34,118 nucleotides of DNA. Source: Acidimicrobiaceae bacterium. GTDB taxonomy: Bacteria; Actinomycetota; Acidimicrobiia; Acidimicrobiales; Poriferisodalaceae. The notes under the pieces are model-generated. The model ran no database searches. It saw only the letters and a program-made list of their open reading frames with translations, and was not told the origin of the DNA. Location: NCBI GenBank assembly GCA_002708935.1, contig PAPO01000006.1, positions 210,041-244,158 on the forward strand, in the 5' to 3' direction. This document shows positions 78-18,028 of the stretch, piece by piece (position 1 is the stretch's first letter; each line of letters begins with the position of its first letter). The translations under genes were made by a program, and so were the position numbers.

Positions 78-276
78 CCCCTCTCTCCTTGAACGCACGG
101 GCTCATTGCCCAGCGAATGCGCAAGTTACCAGCCTAAACCGGTCACGCAAGTTTCGTTTGCCTACTTCTACTATTTCAGTTCTGCTTTCTTAGTCCAAAT
201 ACAGACCAAAAGCGCTGTTCACGCCGATCTATTTTAAGGATTTCTAAAACAAAAATTGGAATTGACAAGTTTTTTG

Positions 277-348
277 TTCGGGGAGGAGGACTCGAACCCC
301 CAACGACTGGACCAGAACCAGATGTGTTGCCAATTACACCATCCCCGA
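277..348 (-). tRNA. tRNA-Gln (anticodon CUG)
   Basis: A complete cloverleaf folds on the minus strand. The acceptor stem is TCGGGGA/TCCCCGA (7 of 7 pairs), the D stem GTGT/ACAC, and the anticodon loop TTCTGGT has CTG at positions 34-36. The anticodon stem has four pairs and one T-T mismatch at its outer end. The T stem is GGGGG/CCTCC with loop TTCGAGT and one G-U pair, and the discriminator is A at 277. CCA is not encoded. It reads CAG codons. It lies just downstream of gltX on the same strand, and gatCAB is also in this window, so it is probably charged with glutamate first and then transamidated. Confidence 0.95.
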
Positions 349-438: not shown

Positions 439-1740
439 CTATGCCGTGCCAAGCTTCGTATGGGCCGCTTCGATTCGTTCTAGGACCTTTTCGCGTCCCA
501 ATGCGTGCATCGATTCAAACAACGGTGGGCCGACCAGTCGACCGGTCACCGCCAACCGAATTGGCGCTTGAGCTTTCCCTAGCTTCATGTCATGCGCTTC
601 GCCGATGGCACGCAAGGTTTCATGCAAGACATCCACATCCCAATCCAAAGTGGCAAACGCTGTTTTCACGGATTCAAGAATCAATGGTGCCTCATCTGTC
701 GTCATGACCTTCTCCCAAGCACTTTGATCAATTTCGGGTGTTTCAAGAAAGAAGAAATCCAACTGCGGCGGCCCTTCGGACAACACGCGAGTGCGTTCCT
801 GCACTAAGGGAGCCACTTTGGATAAACGGTCGTGATCAACCGAGGAACTCCATACCTCGTTTTCCAGCCAGGGCGTTAAGGCCTCCGAGAATTCTTCTTG
901 TGTCATTGCTCGGATGTAGTCGCCGTTGATCGATTCCAACTTCTTGACGTCAAACATTGCCGAAGACGGGTTGACATCTGACAACTGGAATAGCGCGGCG
1001 ATTTCTTCAATTGGGCGCACTTCGATGTCGTCTGGTGGTCCCCAGCCAAGTAAGGCCAAGTAATTGATCATTGCGGCTGCTACGACACCCCGCTCTCGAT
1101 AACTCTCAAGGGCAACGTCGTCTCGTCGTTTTGACAGCTTCTTTCGCTGTTCGTTCACGATTAGCGGCAAGTGAGCGAACTCGGGCATGTCCGTGGCTCC
1201 AAGAGCTTCTCGCAGCATTATGACCTTCGGGGTCACGTTGACAAGATCCTCGCCTCTGACGACATGAGTTATCCCTAAATCAAAGTCGTCAACCGCGTTC
1301 GCGGTAAAGAAGGTGGCGGTACCGTCCGCCCTTCTCACGACGAAGTCTTCAATGTGTTGGTTTTCAAAAACGACAGTTCCTCGAACAGTGTCATTCCAAG
1401 ATGTGGTGCCTTCAGATGGGACGCGAAAGCGAACCGCCCCGTCATCGACGTAGGTCAGTCCGTCCGATATCCATCCTTCAACGGCATCGTTATATAAGTC
1501 GGCTCGTTCGCTCTGCCTGACCGGTTCACCATCAAAGCCAATCTGGAGCCATTCGAGAGACCGGTAGATATTGTCAATTAGTTCTGGTTGGGTGAGTTCA
1601 GCGTTGGTGTCTTCGATCCGAAGGATCAGCTGACCTCCTGTGCTTTGGGCTACAAGCCAGTTGAAGAGTGCCGTGCGCGCTGAGCCGAGATGAAGGGAAC
1701 CGGTAGGGGCCGGGGCGAAACGAAGACGCGTGGTACTCAC
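439..1740 (-). CDS. gltX: glutamate--tRNA ligase
   Basis: Class I synthetase that attaches glutamate to tRNA(Glu) and, because GatCAB is present, probably also to tRNA(Gln). The HIGH-type motif is HLGS near residue 17 in the context APAPTGSLHLGSARTALFNW. The KMSKS-type motif is KLSKR in NEQRKKLSKRRDD, and ITHVVRGEDL is the conserved active-site segment. At 433 aa it is shorter than the usual 470-490. The protein passes directly from GLTYVDDG to AVRFRVPSEG, so it lacks the roughly 35-residue segment (the Cys-rich, zinc-binding region in some bacteria) that normally sits there. The anticodon-binding C-terminus remains. The start is GTG at 1740 without a clear Shine-Dalgarno. It is the last gene of the leuB-cimA operon, 31 nt after the preceding stop. 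Confidence 0.95.
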   Translation of the reverse strand: MSTTRLRFAPAPTGSLHLGSARTALFNWLVAQSTGGQLILRIEDTNAELTQPELIDNIYRSLEWLQIGFDGEPVRQSERADLYNDAVEGWISDGLTYVDDGAVRFRVPSEGTTSWNDTVRGTVVFENQHIEDFVVRRADGTATFFTANAVDDFDLGITHVVRGEDLVNVTPKVIMLREALGATDMPEFAHLPLIVNEQRKKLSKRRDDVALESYRERGVVAAAMINYLALLGWGPPDDIEVRPIEEIAALFQLSDVNPSSAMFDVKKLESINGDYIRAMTQEEFSEALTPWLENEVWSSSVDHDRLSKVAPLVQERTRVLSEGPPQLDFFFLETPEIDQSAWEKVMTTDEAPLILESVKTAFATLDWDVDVLHETLRAIGEAHDMKLGKAQAPIRLAVTGRLVGPPLFESMHALGREKVLERIEAAHTKLGTA

Positions 1741-1771
1741 ATGCTTGAGGGTACGAGAGTATTTGGCTCGT

Positions 1772-2371
1772 TCAGACTTCCCTGCCGAAGATCTCTAAGA
1801 GTTGGGTTTGCTCATCTGCACCGGGAGAAGATGATCTTGATGGGTCGAAGAGTTCTGGCATCTCCGCCATTTGGTCCCGACGCTCCCGAGCCCAAACAAG
1901 CGCAGCTGACACCACCTCATCATCAATCCGGTCGTCTACACCAAGTCCGACAGCCAAATCCCAGGCATGGACTGCCAGGTCACAGGTCCGAACTCGAAGG
2001 AATTCGATAGTAGGAATCGATTGTTCCCCTAGCGCAACTTGTCCTTCTATATCAGCGTCCGCGAACGCTGCTACCACATTGCGCCACGAAACTTCCCATG
2101 CCATTTCCGGATCTTCAACCACTACTTCCGCAGTAATCGACATGACGTCTTCAAATGGGGCGCCTTCAAGAATTCGAGATGCGCGCATATTTTCGACAAC
2201 GCAATGAGCTACTAGGTCGTATACATCCCATTCGTCACATGGGGTTGATGCTTCCCAATACTCGGGGAGAATTTGCCGAATTCGGTAGTCCACTTCGCCT
2301 GCGGCCAGTTGGTGGATCCGAAGCCACGCCGCATCGGGAATTTGCTCACTCAGCACTGTCCGGTGCCGCAA
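1772..2371 (-). CDS. DinB-like metal-binding protein, MDMPI_N/TIGR03086 type
   Basis: This 199-aa protein has the signature of the mycothiol-dependent maleylpyruvate isomerase N-terminal family (DinB/YfiT fold). TPCDEWDVYDLVAH spans residues 43-56 and CDLAVHAWDLAVGLG follows near residues 130-144. His56, Asp131 and His135 sit where the family binds its metal. Family members are often thiol-dependent enzymes using mycothiol, but the substrate cannot be told from sequence. The listed ATG overlaps the upstream gene by 22 bp. An in-frame GTG at 2356, overlapping by 7 bp, is an equally good start and would remove five residues. It lies between a degenerate paralogue and gltX, in the same transcription unit. 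Confidence 0.8.
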   Translation of the reverse strand: MRHRTVLSEQIPDAAWLRIHQLAAGEVDYRIRQILPEYWEASTPCDEWDVYDLVAHCVVENMRASRILEGAPFEDVMSITAEVVVEDPEMAWEVSWRNVVAAFADADIEGQVALGEQSIPTIEFLRVRTCDLAVHAWDLAVGLGVDDRIDDEVVSAALVWARERRDQMAEMPELFDPSRSSSPGADEQTQLLEIFGREV

Positions 2372-2937
2372 GAGGGGTCAGAAGGGTCAACCCAGAGACC
2401 TGAGGGGCGTCCATGTTGGGCTAGGAGGCGTAGTACCGGCGGCGTCGACATATCGACATCAAGTGACTCGAGTGATGGCCACACAGTGACGTCAGGTTCA
2501 ATTACGGATATCCGGTCAACAAGAAGATCATCTAATCCCGTCCCAGCCCGAATAGCCTGCTGGAGGTCGTAGCCGAGCACTGTGAGTTCTACTATTCGCT
2601 GCCACAGCAACTGTCGACGTTGAGGGCTGAATCCCGATTGGTGATCCAAAGCTGAGGCGACCGTTAAGACTGTCCGGATCGATTCAACAACAATTTTGGT
2701 GGGTTCCGTTCCAAGGTCAACCGATTCTGGAACGGTTTGTCCTGTTAATTCTGCGGCTGCCGCCAGGTTTCCGTCAGCGACCTGACACAGCAAGTCACCT
2801 ACTGTCAGATCGTTCATAGGTACAGCTAATGGCATAGGAAGGTGTTCCCATGCTGGCAAACGCATGCGGGCAGCAAAATCCGTGCATGCGCGTCTGTGAA
2901 GACGAAGTAATTCACGATCAGGTGTTGAGTCATTCAT
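2350..2937 (-). CDS. degenerate DinB/MDMPI-like paralogue
   Basis: This 195-aa protein aligns by eye with its downstream neighbour. LAVPMNDLTVGDLLCQVADGN (residues 37-57) matches TPCDEWDVYDLVAHCVVEN, and VELTVLGYDLQQAIRAGTGL matches TCDLAVHAWDLAVGLG. The two histidines that would bind metal in the neighbour are replaced by Gln52 and Leu121; Glu117 is kept. It therefore looks like a DinB-fold subunit that has lost its metal site, perhaps a structural partner of the neighbour. Its ATG overlaps the stop of the upstream gene in an ATGA, which suggests translational coupling. The family assignment rests on this pairwise similarity and is less certain than for the neighbour. Confidence 0.65.
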   Translation of the reverse strand: MNDSTPDRELLRLHRRACTDFAARMRLPAWEHLPMPLAVPMNDLTVGDLLCQVADGNLAAAAELTGQTVPESVDLGTEPTKIVVESIRTVLTVASALDHQSGFSPQRRQLLWQRIVELTVLGYDLQQAIRAGTGLDDLLVDRISVIEPDVTVWPSLESLDVDMSTPPVLRLLAQHGRPSGLWVDPSDPSCGTGQC

Positions 2938-3458
2938 GACAACTCCAATAGTGACGTCCAGTCCGTCGAATACTGCTCTTCGAGGTCACTGGGCGACATC
3001 TTTAAGGTTCGAATAGGAACAGCGGCAACTAGATGGCGAACCTCTGAGTAGTGATGTGATTCAGATAGCCCTTCAAAAAGCCGAGATCGCTCTCTGAGTA
3101 GTTCCGCATCTGCAGAGGCGTCAAGAAAACCCCAGATCCGATAGGCCATCTCTAGGTCATACACAACCGGGGCTCGGCCGAATATAGATGCCCTCTTGAG
3201 AGCTATCTGAACACATCCGCGTTCAACATCATCTAGATGTTCATGTTCGGTGATATGAAGCCGTTCTCTGAAGCTTCGGCAAAGACGTAACGCGTAACCT
3301 TGGTCGGGGCCTTGGTGACCCAAGGAACCACCACTGGGCTGCACGGAGTCAAGGTCTGCTGGGCGACGATTCACCCAACTCGACGGGACCACATTCGGCG
3401 ACCGATAGGTGCTCGCTTCTTCCGTCGGTGACAAAGGTACGTGTCTAGGGGCTGCCAT
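2934..3458 (-). CDS. conserved hypothetical protein, 174 aa
   Basis: I do not recognise a named domain. The N-terminus is proline-rich and probably disordered. Residues 45-60 (SLGHQGPDQGYALRLC) and 84-110 (including ALKRASIFGRAPVVYDLEMA and IWGFLD) look like conserved helical segments, followed by an HHYSEVRHLVAAVP stretch. There is no signal peptide or membrane helix, so it is probably cytoplasmic. From memory, proteins beginning MAAPRHVP with the GPDQGYAL and RASIFGRAPV segments occur in other Acidimicrobiia, which would make it lineage-conserved; I could not check this. It lies 6 nt downstream of cimA and overlaps the next gene by 4 bp, so it is co-expressed with branched-chain amino acid genes. 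No function is proposed. Confidence 0.75.
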   Translation of the reverse strand: MAAPRHVPLSPTEEASTYRSPNVVPSSWVNRRPADLDSVQPSGGSLGHQGPDQGYALRLCRSFRERLHITEHEHLDDVERGCVQIALKRASIFGRAPVVYDLEMAYRIWGFLDASADAELLRERSRLFEGLSESHHYSEVRHLVAAVPIRTLKMSPSDLEEQYSTDWTSLLELS

Positions 3459-3464
3459 AGAAGA

Positions 3465-5111
3465 TCAGTTTAGAGAACTGTCGCCCTGTGCGCGGTGTCG
3501 ATAAAGCGCGTAGACCAACGCGTCACGAAGGGCAAACCAAGAAGCTTCAATAATATTTTCGGATACTCCGATAGTGGTCCATGTCGCCTCGGAGTCAGCG
3601 CTGTCCACTAATACTCGTGTCACGGCACCAGTACCGCGATTGGTGTCAAGGACACGGACTTTGTAATCAGTGAGGTGAACCTCAGATAGTTCCGGGTATA
3701 TGTCAATGACTGCGTTCCGGAAGGCGTTGTCAAGAGCATTGACTGGCCCGTCGCCTTCTCCCACGGTGATCATACGTTCTCCGCCCACAACTATTCGCAG
3801 GGTCGCTTCAGTGTCGAATTGTCGATCTTGCCCTCGCTCCACTAACACTCGGAACGATTCCACATCGAAATAGTCGAACTCTTCCCCTGCAGCGCGCCGC
3901 ATCATCAGCTCTAGAGAGGCATCCGCGACTTCAAAGTGGTAACCCTCATGCTCTAGTCGTTTCATTTCTTCTACGACTTCGACCATCTGTTTATCTTCGA
4001 TTTCTATGCCCAACTGTTCAGCTTTTAATTCAACTGATGCGCGGCCCGACAAATCTCCTAACAAGAACCTCGTGCTGTTTCCAACCGCAGACGGATCTAC
4101 GTGTTCATAGCTATCGGGTCGCCGAGCAATTGCACTGGTATGTAGACCTGCCTTATGTGCGAACGCTGATGTCCCTACATACGGCTGCTGATGTTGTGGT
4201 GGCATGTTCATTAGCTCAGCCACATGGTGTGACACCGACGTCAGTCTCTCAATGTGGTCTTCCGGCAGAGTTTCGATGCCCATCTTCAACGTGAGATTCG
4301 GCACCAGTACCGTGTTGTCACAATTGCCAGTGCGTTCTCCGTACCCGTTGATTGTTCCTTGCACATGCGTGGCGCCGGCAACCACACCCGCCACCGCATT
4401 GGCGACTGCGCAACCTGTGTCATTTTGGGTATGCATTCCAATTTGGACACCATCGAAGTGTCGTACGACATCAGTAACGATTCTCTCAACTTCGTGCGGT
4501 AATGATCCACCGTTGGTGTCGCAGAGCACTAGGCAGTCAGCACCCTGAACCGCTGCTGCTTCGAGAACCTGAAGAGAGAACTCCGGGTTGCGTTTGTATC
4601 CATCAAAGAAATGTTCTGCATCGAAGAACACGCGAAGGCCTTCAGCCTTCAGAAATTCGACGGAGTCGCCAACCATTGCGACCCCTTCATCCAAGGGCTG
4701 CCGTAATGCCTCGGTAACGTGATAATCCCATGATTTTCCGACTATACAAACGGTAGAAGTCCCAGCTTCGACAAGAGAAGACAATGTTTGGTCTTCATCT
4801 ACTCGACCTTTAGGCCGACGGGTTGATCCAAAAGCTACGAGCTGTGAGTTCTTGAGTTCCAGTTCGGTTGCAGCGCGTTGGAAAAATTCTTCGTCTTTGG
4901 GATTGGAACCAGGCCACCCACCTTCGATCCAATGAACCCCGAGGTGGTCGAGTTGTCGAGCCACTTTTAGTTTGTCGTCAGAAGAAACCGAAATACCTTC
5001 AAACTGAACTCCGTCGCGCAAGGTTGTGTCAAAAATCTCAACCTTCTCCGGCCAGGAGACATCACGAACTCCCTGACGATCGACTGAAGGTTGGTTGTTG
5101 TCTTCGGTCAT
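3465..5111 (-). CDS. cimA: (R)-citramalate synthase
   Basis: CimA condenses pyruvate and acetyl-CoA to citramalate, the first step of the threonine-independent route to 2-oxobutyrate and isoleucine. The HMG-CoA-lyase-like TIM barrel starts with [13 protein letters not shown] (residues 27-39) and contains CDTNGG (197-202) and [14 protein letters not shown]. The C-terminal part resembles the LeuA-type regulatory domain. The length of 548 aa and the opening [17 protein letters not shown] favour CimA over LeuA or homocitrate synthase. The usual metal-binding H-x-H is His227-Thr-Gln229 here, so the second histidine is Gln. Its ATG overlaps the leuB stop by 4 bp, consistent with coupling to LeuB, which acts later in the same pathway. 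The Ile-rich leader upstream of leuB probably controls both. Confidence 0.92.
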
Positions 5112-6097
5112 TGATCCCCCTGAGAAATGTTCCCAAGAATTGCTGTAGCAATTTCCTCCGTTGTGCCACTGCTTGGGATCCCTTCGCAGGCCGCCCGGAC
5201 CCGTTGGGCAGTTTCGACGTCACCCAAGAATTCGAGCATCATCACACCTGACAGCACTGCTGCTGTTGGGTTAGCCAGTCCTTGGCCCGCGATATCCGGA
5301 GCGGAGCCGTGCACTGGCTCGAAAAGTGATGGCGCACTCCGGTCTGGGTTGAGATTCGCCGACGATGCAAGTCCAATTCCACCAGCGACCGCTCCGCCGA
5401 GGTCGGTGAGGATATCTCCAAAGAGATTGTCGGTAACAACAACCTCGTAGCGGGTCGGATCTTCCACGAAGTAAATGCAGGCAGCATCAACGTGGTTGTA
5501 GGCAGTTTCGACATCGGGGTATTCCACGGCTACTTCTTCGAACGTCCGTTGCCACAGATCTCCCGAAAACGTCAAAACGTTGGTCTTGTGGACCAATGTA
5601 AGGTGCTTTCGTTCTCGACTTTGAGCCAGCTCAAAGCCGTACCGAATACAACGCTCTGCACCTTTTCGAGTGTTCACAGAGCCTTGGGTAGCGATTTCAT
5701 GAACTGTGCCTTTGCGAAGGAACCCGCCTTCGCCCGCGTAGGTTCCTTCTGTGTTTTCTCTGATGACAACGAATTCGTGACCGTCAGGAAGAACGAACGG
5801 TCGCAAATTGACGTATAGGTCGAGTTCAAATCGCGCTTTCAGCAGAAGCCCTCGTTCTATTACCCCCGGCGGAACTTCGGGAGTGCCAACTGCACCCAGC
5901 AGAATTGCGTCGTAAGCACGCAGCTCCTCAAGTGTTTCATCGGGGAGGACAACTCCATCCTCGAGGTAACGAAAACCCCCTAAACGAAAGTCCGTCGTGT
6001 CCAGGTCCGCACCCGCGGCTCTCATGACATCAAGCGCGACTGAGGTCACTTCGGGCCCGATGCCGTCTCCACCTATAACTGCGATCTTGTGGGGCAC
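5108..6097 (-). CDS. leuB: 3-isopropylmalate dehydrogenase
   Basis: NAD-dependent beta-decarboxylating dehydrogenase of leucine synthesis; it also oxidises the methylmalate intermediate of the citramalate route. The sequence begins [13 protein letters not shown] and contains [38 protein letters not shown] and the metal-binding [20 protein letters not shown]. The length of 329 aa is normal for the shorter actinobacterial type. The start is GTG at 6097, with Shine-Dalgarno AGGAG 8 nt upstream. Homologous tartrate/isocitrate dehydrogenases are the alternative, but pairing with cimA and the leuCD genes nearby favours LeuB. It is the first structural gene after the leader at 6157-6288. Confidence 0.93.
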
Positions 6098-6156
6098 TTA
6101 CTTTCTCCTAGTTCGGTTTATGGACAGAGGTTGATGGGCAAGGCCGTAGAGGCCCT

Positions 6157-6189
6157 ATTAAAGGCAAAGACCGCCCCCGAGGGACGGTC
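6157..6189 (-). terminator. intrinsic terminator (attenuator) in the leuB leader
   Basis: On the minus strand GACCGTCCC-TCG-GGGGCGGTC (6189-6169) forms a strong hairpin with one U-G pair, followed by TTTGCCTTT. It lies between the predicted leader peptide and leuB, about 60 nt before the leuB start, so it can only act as an attenuator. Its 3' arm GGCGGTC is also perfectly complementary to GACCGCC inside the leader-peptide codons (6238-6232). Confidence 0.75.
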
Positions 6190-6194
6190 AATAA

Positions 6195-6217
6195 GCGCAC
6201 ACGTTAAACGTGTGCGC
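6195..6217 (-). promoter_or_regulatory. leader hairpin abutting the leader-peptide stop
   Basis: GCGCACACGT-TTA-ACGTGTGCGC is a perfect 10-bp inverted repeat. Its first base is the last base of the leader stop codon TAG. A ribosome paused on the three Ile codons would cover its 5' arm, while one finishing at the stop would sit against it. That is the placement expected of a pause or anti-antiterminator stem in ribosome-mediated attenuation. Confidence 0.65.
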
Positions 6218-6252
6218 TACGAAATAATGATGGCGGTCAGGTATGCCCTCAC
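6217..6252 (-). CDS. leuB-cimA leader peptide (predicted)
   Basis: An 11-codon frame, GTG through TAG, encodes MRAYLTAIIIS. Three consecutive isoleucine codons (ATC ATT ATT) end one codon before the stop, with one Leu codon earlier. Isoleucine is the end product of the citramalate route that CimA and LeuB serve. The predicted -10 box ends 7 nt before the GTG and there is no Shine-Dalgarno, so the peptide is probably translated from a leaderless transcript. It is followed at once by a 10-bp hairpin and then an intrinsic terminator. The peptide would act in cis through the ribosome and need not have a function of its own. Confidence 0.65.
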   Translation of the reverse strand: MRAYLTAIIIS

Positions 6253-6259
6253 AATCTCT

Positions 6260-6288
6260 ATTGTCGGCAACTTAGAGCGCCACGTCAA
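6260..6288 (-). promoter_or_regulatory. promoter of the leuB-cimA-gltX operon
   Basis: On the minus strand TTGACG (6288-6283) and GACAAT (6265-6260) are exactly 17 nt apart, a good match to the housekeeping sigma consensus. The start site would fall at about 6253-6252, on the GTG of the leader peptide. Confidence 0.65.
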
Positions 6289-6326
6289 ACTGATTACTGA
6301 ACTGCTGGCAGAAACCTAGGGCGCAG

Positions 6327-6355
6327 TTCACACGTCAAGCCGAATTCGATACGCT
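6327..6355 (+). promoter_or_regulatory. predicted leaderless promoter of greA
   Basis: TTCACA (6327-6332) and TACGCT (6350-6355) have a 17-nt spacer. The -10 box fits the actinobacterial TAnnnT form and ends 6 nt before the GTG start of greA, so the mRNA probably begins at or next to the start codon. No Shine-Dalgarno is present. Confidence 0.5.
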
Positions 6356-6361
6356 TTAGGG

Positions 6362-6829
6362 GTGGCTGAATTGCAACACCTTTCTCCTGAAGCCCATGCT
6401 CGTCTCGCCGCTGAGTTCAAAGATCTCACAACCCGCGGCCGGATCGACATTGCCGACAAGATCGAAGAGGCGCGGTTACTTGGAGATCTATCAGAAAACG
6501 GCGATTACCACGCTGCAAAAGAGGAGCAAGGAAAAATGGAGGGGCGGATCCTCCATCTCGCTTCGGTCCTTGAAAATTGTGAAATTGTTGCGCAAACGTC
6601 GAGTGATTCAGTCAACCCCGGTGTCGTAGTGGAAATCCGTTTCAAGGGTGACGAGACAACAGAAAAGTATCTTTTCGGCTCCATAGAGGAACGTGTTGAT
6701 GGCATTGAAGTCATTTCACCCGGTTCTCCGATGGGTCAAGCCCTTGAAGGTGGCGTCGTCGGCCAAGTAGTTGAGTACGAGGCGGGGGCGGGTTCTTTGT
6801 CTGTCGAGATCATCGCGATCGAGGCATAA
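6362..6829 (+). CDS. greA: transcription elongation factor GreA
   Basis: GreA enters the secondary channel of RNA polymerase and stimulates cleavage of backtracked transcripts. The 155-aa protein has the N-terminal coiled coil (about residues 1-75) with the acidic tip LGDLSENGDYHAAKEEQ (about 40-56), and the C-terminal FKBP-like domain ending in SPGSPMGQALEGGVVGQVVE. This is the normal length and layout. The GTG start at 6362 lacks a Shine-Dalgarno, and a -10 box ends 6 nt upstream, suggesting leaderless translation. It is divergent from the leuB operon across a 264-bp region holding both promoters, and the next gene follows after 9 nt. Confidence 0.95.
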   Translation: MAELQHLSPEAHARLAAEFKDLTTRGRIDIADKIEEARLLGDLSENGDYHAAKEEQGKMEGRILHLASVLENCEIVAQTSSDSVNPGVVVEIRFKGDETTEKYLFGSIEERVDGIEVISPGSPMGQALEGGVVGQVVEYEAGAGSLSVEIIAIEA

Positions 6830-17892: not shown

Positions 17893-17921
17893 AAACGGAA
17901 ATGGTCCCCTAAGGGACCATT
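17893..17921 (-). terminator. intrinsic terminator (attenuator) in the ilvB leader
   Basis: On the minus strand AATGGTCCC-TTAG-GGGACCATT (17921-17900) is a perfect 9-bp stem whose last bases begin the tract TTTCCGTTT. It ends about 60 nt before the ilvB start. Its 5' arm TGGTCC is complementary to GGACCA within the leader-peptide codons (17979-17974). Confidence 0.75.
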
Positions 17922-17924
17922 AAC

Positions 17925-17955
17925 AAGCGGGATCGAATGACCCGCTTACGCGGGT
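17925..17955 (-). promoter_or_regulatory. alternative hairpins in the ilvB leader
   Basis: Two mutually exclusive stems share one strand. ACCCGC-GTAA-GCGGGT (17955-17940) has six pairs and a GNRA-type loop that contains the leader stop codon. AAGCGGG (17947-17941) can instead pair with CCCGCTT (17931-17925) in seven pairs. This is the 1:2 versus 2:3 arrangement of classical amino-acid attenuators. The 2:3 stem ends 3 nt short of the terminator, so how it would block termination is not settled by the sequence. Confidence 0.6.
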
Positions 17956-17993
17956 ACTACGAGAAAGCGAGACTGGTCCGTATCTGATCGCAC
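17946..17993 (-). CDS. ilvBNC leader peptide (predicted)
   Basis: A 15-codon frame, GTG through TAA, encodes MRSDTDQSRFLVVPA. Consecutive Leu-Val-Val codons (CTC GTA GTA) sit three to five codons before the stop, as expected for a peptide that senses branched-chain aminoacyl-tRNAs. The stop codon lies in the loop of the first hairpin. The predicted -10 box ends 6 nt before the GTG and no Shine-Dalgarno is present, so it is probably translated from a leaderless mRNA, like the leuB leader. An overlapping ATG frame (18001-17957) has no such codon cluster and is rejected. Confidence 0.62.
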   Translation of the reverse strand: MRSDTDQSRFLVVPA

Positions 17994-17999
17994 GAAACC

Positions 18000-18028
18000 A
18001 TTTTGGCGGCGTGAAATGCCAGTCGCAA
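18000..18028 (-). promoter_or_regulatory. promoter of the ilvBNC operon
   Basis: On the minus strand TTGCGA (18028-18023) and CAAAAT (18005-18000) are 17 nt apart. The start site would fall on or next to the GTG of the leader peptide at 17993. The layout matches the leuB leader promoter almost base for base in spacing. Confidence 0.55.

Follow-up and report, generated by a model that had tools for sequence, protein, structure and literature searches.

Attenuators of the Escherichia coli trp/ilv type need overlapping 2:3 and 3:4 hairpins, and whether transcription reads through or terminates depends on stalling of the ribosome at control codons. Leaders with runs of codons for branched-chain amino acids (BCAA) have been described upstream of ilvB genes in several actinobacteria. 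The ilvBNC leader of Corynebacterium glutamicum is leaderless, and its antiterminator and terminator hairpins are adjacent, with only three bases (GCC) in common (PMC11857589). In the ilvB-II motif, P1 by definition overlaps the upstream open reading frame (uORF), and the antiterminator is formed by the loop of P1 together with the right shoulder of P2. The ilvB1 uORF of Mycobacterium tuberculosis carries LVVI codons, GUA being one of the control codons, and the position of the ribosome on them decides the fate of the terminator; this leader, found only upstream of ilvB1NC, is modelled with a mutually exclusive terminator and antiterminator (PMC13236596). A study from 2005 described BCAA codon runs and terminators before ilvB in Corynebacterium, Mycobacterium and Streptomyces, with codons that overlap the terminator. 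It left the mechanism open, as parts of an attenuator were missing, and it included no Acidimicrobiia, leuB or cimA (PMC1262725).

We analyzed a 34,118-nucleotide stretch of the genome of a marine Acidimicrobiaceae bacterium (the window, to which all positions refer), in which an isoleucine-type attenuator had been predicted in front of leuB-cimA. The leader found there resembles those of C. glutamicum ilvBNC and the ilvB-II motif (PMC11857589, PMC10272879) in its leaderless BCAA peptide, in a hairpin directly before an intrinsic terminator, and in its association with a BCAA operon. Whereas the first hairpins of C. glutamicum overlap the uORF and the antiterminator shares GCC with the terminator, in the present leader the stop codon is where the first hairpin (P1) begins, and P1 has no nucleotide in common with the terminator (T). 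The genes also differ, being ilvBNC in C. glutamicum and leuB-cimA or cimA, as well as ilvB, in the present leaders. The family could be a limit case of the C. glutamicum design, with zero shared bases. In the open-access literature searched, we found no published leader before leuB or cimA, in Acidimicrobiia, or of this architecture.

Anatomy of the leuB leader and its genes

The leader is located on the minus strand between the start of leuB (6097) and that of greA (6362, plus strand). A sigma-70-type promoter (6260..6288) consists of TTGACG (6288-6283), a 17-nt spacer and GACAAT (6265-6260), which agrees in strand, place and spacing with the original prediction. It is the sole promoter-like match within positions 6000-6450 (0.3 expected). 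Seven nucleotides past the -10 box, a GTG (6252) opens a uORF (6217..6252) that is probably leaderless, because its start codon is so close to that box. The uORF encodes the 11-codon peptide MRAYLTAIIIS, exactly as had been proposed, and ends in TAG (6219-6217); three adjacent Ile codons (ATC ATT ATT, 6223..6231) occupy positions -4 to -2 before the stop.

P1 (6194..6218) begins with the A of this TAG. The prediction of a perfect 10-bp hairpin on the stop codon thus had the position right and the length wrong, as the stem has 11 bp, closed by a 3-nt loop. After the spacer TATT (6190..6193) comes T (6160..6189), with a 9-bp stem (6189-6169) and a U-rich tail (6168-6160; TTTGCCTTT). T had been called strong; the terminator and its tail are there, but the U-tract is moderate. 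No other terminator-like match occurs in the same region of ~450 nt (0.3 expected), and the P1-T segment folds at -31.6 kcal/mol, versus -15.3 kcal/mol for shuffled sequences (z = -6.2). A further short hairpin (GGGCC...GGCC, about 6155-6135, minus strand) is located downstream of T and is seemingly kept, with altered sequence, in the genus.

The genes that follow, all on the minus strand, begin with leuB (5108..6097; NF002898, above its curated cut-off) as the first gene of the putative operon. It overlaps by 4 nt with cimA (3465..5111), which encodes citramalate synthase (TIGR00977; 682.6 bits, cut-off 450). Contiguous with cimA are three small ORFs and gltX (together 439..3458; gltX 439-1740), whose product also scores above its curated NCBIfam cut-off. 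Within the leuB-gltX gene set, we found no internal promoter or terminator signals clearly above chance, and the order cimA-three ORFs-gltX is kept, with small gaps, in the five same-genus genomes that we checked. A single operon from leuB to gltX is therefore likely, given the tight succession of genes, their conserved order and the lack of clear internal signals. If so, the supply of isoleucine may also tune gltX. A tRNA-Gln gene (CTG anticodon; 276-348, minus strand) follows gltX.

Conservation and the choice of control codons

Conservation in relatives had been proposed as the check on the prediction, and it was found both in the genus and in most genera of the class. In all same-genus loci that we read, which include one from the marine actinobacterium MedAcidi-G3, the promoter with its -35 and -10 hexamers, the uORF frame, the Ile run, the stop, P1 and T are kept. 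The run reads ATC ATT ATT or has four Ile codons, and once it is Val-Ile-Ile-Ile; changes in length are whole codons (3 nt, in frame) at the run itself. The N-terminal residues of the uORF and the loop of P1 are the variable parts. A covariance model (R1) built from 26 loci matched 230 out of 395 Acidimicrobiia genomes and 139 out of 184 genera, with two or three copies in some 30 genomes. Weaker R1 matches were obtained upstream of ilvB or leuB in other classes of Actinomycetota (e.g., loci L167, L169, L200 and L201). We discarded the matches in some very large Actinomycetota genomes (L202, L204 and L207), which look like chance terminators beside other genes. The leader had no match to any curated model in Rfam 15 (4227 families), and a comparison of 14 related loci with Rfam yielded a single subthreshold match, to Phe_leader (31.6 bits; threshold, 55).

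To see how codon content relates to the genes, we grouped the leaders by the first downstream gene: leuB (n = 49, nearly all then followed by ilvE or cimA), cimA alone (n = 17), or ilvB (n = 34). All 17 leaders of cimA alone have Ile at positions -2, -3 and -4. In leuB leaders, position -2 is Ile in 94%, and positions -3 to -5 are mostly Val or Ile, with almost no Leu. At positions -5 to -2 of ilvB leaders, 97 to 100% of codons are for Leu, Val or Ile, chiefly Leu and Val. Branched-chain codons make up 0 to 24% at positions -1 and -7. The single codon between run and stop is free. The argument that isoleucine makes sense for the pathway is hence stronger than originally put, with Ile-only runs before cimA alone, mainly Leu/Val runs before ilvB, and Ile/Val runs before leuB(-ilvE)-cimA. 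Where cimA directly follows leuB (in this genus and in L107), the runs are Ile-only or nearly so. It would be sensible to connect this with the lack of ilvE, a transaminase gene, in these operons; two lineages form the basis for this. In L153, L138 and L164, an Ile-only leader is located between ilvE and cimA within an apparent leuB-ilvE-cimA cluster, placing cimA under its own control.

Synonymous choice at these positions is also skewed. In the leaders of leuB and ilvB, 57 to 75% of Val codons at control positions are the rare codon GTA, versus 3.7% of Val codons in the downstream genes, and ATT is likewise enriched over background. This roughly 15- to 20-fold overrepresentation of GTA suggests that sensitivity to a single species of tRNA-Val has been selected for. 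The stop codon is TAG in 97 of the 101 leaders, versus 22 of 86 downstream genes. The spacing to the -10 box across copies is a partly circular measure, as start codons were picked using the -10 score; spacing within the genus is unaffected.

Short ORFs are common, and one could in principle have come to stand beside an ordinary terminator by chance, though none of our results favoured this. Conservation throughout the class and codon content specific to the downstream gene contradict this, and we regard a chance origin as excluded for practical purposes (its probability is vanishingly small) because the frame, the Ile run, the hairpins and the promoter are conserved and R1 finds the leader in 230 of 395 genomes.

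The window contains a second leader (17900..18028, minus strand), in front of ilvBNC (17831-14485, minus strand). It has a promoter (TTGCGA-N17-CAAAAT), a leaderless uORF with a GTG start (MRSDTDQSRFLVVPA; 17993-17946) that ends in FLVVPA, a P1 (17948-17924) that begins within the TAA stop, and a terminator (17921-17900). One genome thus carries two leaders, of the Ile type for leuB-cimA and of the Leu-Val type for ilvBNC. In same-genus genomes, the ilvB leader is kept, including an LVV-type run, the hairpin on the stop codon and the terminator, and in-frame insertions occur; in L233, a Pro codon replaces Leu in the run. The R1 model misses the ilvB leader of the window, probably because its hairpin sequences differ. 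In the ilvB leaders of L232, L233 and L234, the loop of P1 (TACTACGA) and the stretch of control codons (TCGTAGTA in L232 and L234) are complementary to each other. The loop in the window reads TCATTCGA, and this pairing is not kept there.

Two separate hairpins and no detectable antiterminator

In each of the 101 copies, the stretch bounded by the stop codon and the end of T folds as exactly two separate and compatible hairpins. P1 starts 0 to 3 nt into the stop codon and T follows 0 to 6 nt after P1, again in 101 of 101 copies (4 nt in the leuB leader of the window). Both helices covary strongly. Cells with both sides of a pair changed numbered 128 in an alignment of 80 distinct sequences, versus 28 in shuffles, and 130 in one of 42, versus 31; compensatory changes far exceed those in shuffled or slid controls. 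The fitting of these alignments to the model tilts the numbers in its favour, but the margins are large. P1 as DNA is a near-perfect palindrome of 25 nt, so it might serve as the operator of a regulator, with the uORF incidental. An operator would conserve its sequence, whereas P1 varies with compensation at all 8 of its 8 modelled pairs. With P1 also locked to the stop codon and the codons tracking the pathway, this explanation is very improbable.

We then looked for pairings beyond the two hairpins by comparing own with swapped duplexes among the uORF, the P1 arms, the loop, the spacer, the T arms, the tail and 60 nt downstream. Only the pairings of P1 and T stood out (z of about -7 to -13). 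A few other segment pairs had z values between -2 and -2.6, which is what one would expect when several tens of tests are run. No conserved antiterminator mutually exclusive with T was detected in the 101 copies by this test, which is uncalibrated on classical attenuators and which a weak or invariant pairing could escape. A longer P1 that takes in the base of T, in the style of the boundary trinucleotide of C. glutamicum, showed no coevolution. Neither did pairing between the P1 loop and T; with this, and with a P1 that starts at the stop codon, the family falls outside the ilvB-II definition. Because no mutually exclusive structure was found, T is predicted at equilibrium wherever the ribosome stands: it is about equally likely with the ribosome stalled or at the stop, with a mean probability of at least 0.92 per group.

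Classical attenuation could still operate through a lineage-specific antiterminator, in which GACCGCC of the uORF pairs with GGCGGTC, the 3' arm of T. The minimum-energy fold of positions 6253-6098 does use this pairing, but the GACCGCC stretch is under the ribosome whenever it is stalled or terminating. Within the same genus, the pairing is broken without compensation by GAACGCC in the uORF (L018 and L021) and by GACGG in T (L017 and L022), and over the 101 copies, complementarity between uORF and T is no better than in swapped or shuffled controls. We therefore consider such an antiterminator unlikely. We also rejected the idea that one frame stays open beyond the stop to allow readthrough or frameshifting, as the three frames are equally open (94, 94 and 92 of 101).

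The comparison with the trp/ilv type is thus divided. The leaders have a short ORF in which consecutive codons specify products of the pathway (Ile, Val and Leu runs, whose positions are fixed and whose content goes with the gene) and an intrinsic terminator before the structural genes; an antiterminator that excludes the terminator was not found, and for this reason we do not place them in the strict classical class. They are best filed as leaders that work like BCAA attenuators and are related to the actinobacterial ilvB-type leaders, neither ilvB-II nor strictly classical.

Proposed mechanism and implications

The leuB-cimA(-gltX) leader would be a transcription attenuator in which the ribosome serves as the sensor of charged tRNA-Ile, with folded P1 leading to readthrough. 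Judging from the features of the leader and its relatives, we give this reading a probability of roughly 0.82. The isoleucine attenuator of the original prediction is supported by the conservation and by codons that match the gene; the antiterminator of the textbook mechanism is not. Besides the predicted folding of T in both ribosome states, an observation from Streptomyces coelicolor counts against the attenuator model: there, as reported secondhand, codon changes in the ilvB leader were without effect (cited in PMC1262725).

The ribosome would load on the 5'-terminal GTG and translate the 11-codon uORF. With ample Ile-tRNA, it would reach the TAG, where its leading edge would cover about 12 nt and open P1; with P1 melted, T would form and transcription would end before leuB. 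With scarce Ile-tRNA, it would stall at the Ile codons, P1 would stay folded, and RNA polymerase would continue into leuB-cimA. The geometry is as one would design it for the ribosome to report on P1. The leading edge of a ribosome lies about 15 nt beyond the first base of the P site. In a ribosome whose A site holds the stop codon, this edge covers the 5' arm of P1. If the A site is at the first Ile codon, the edge gets only as far as the T of TAG, and P1 is left intact. Readthrough with P1 folded would be the direction of regulation expected for a biosynthetic operon.

How folded P1 would prevent termination is the less secure step. Since P1 and T share no nucleotides, we infer a steric action: with 4 nt between it and the base of T, P1 would hinder T in or at the RNA exit channel without competing base pairs. 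T closes to its base inside the channel while its 5' flank threads out, and a helix 0 to 6 nt upstream may not fit. Phage protein P7 causes antitermination by plugging the RNA exit channel (PMC6624301). In the literature searched, we found no direct precedent for such a step with an RNA hairpin, and a computational study in which clustered hairpins favour termination (PMC8355165) counts against it. We rate the steric step, taken alone, somewhat short of even odds.

P1 might instead be a mere pause hairpin that synchronises RNA polymerase and ribosome, with readthrough under starvation brought about by the coupled ribosome or by a protein factor (NusA or NusG). In trp and his attenuators, pause hairpins lie ahead of the terminator, and P1 recalls them in position. 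Leaderless initiation would also gain from a pause, a suggestion that has been made for C. glutamicum (PMC11857589). Pausing, however, leaves the 0- to 6-nt distance between P1 and T in 101 of 101 copies unexplained and gives no account of how a ribosome tens of nucleotides behind prevents T, and we find it doubtful. Returning to steric hindrance by P1, we tentatively extend it to the whole class, although the odds run against so general a claim: all these leaders may use a minimal attenuator, in which a hairpin locked to the stop codon blocks a nearby terminator by proximity alone and the terminating ribosome melts the hairpin, switching off the block.

These leaders add a widespread amino acid-sensing family to a class without described ones in the literature searched, and they would connect the citramalate route to isoleucine, represented by leuB-cimA, with the sensing of that amino acid. 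They also raise the question of whether a hairpin beside a terminator can prevent termination without competing for its bases. This question is testable thanks to about a hundred diverged copies, in which the two hairpins covary separately and no antiterminator was detected. Finally, given the tight link between codon content and downstream gene, leader peptides can be used in assigning pathways.
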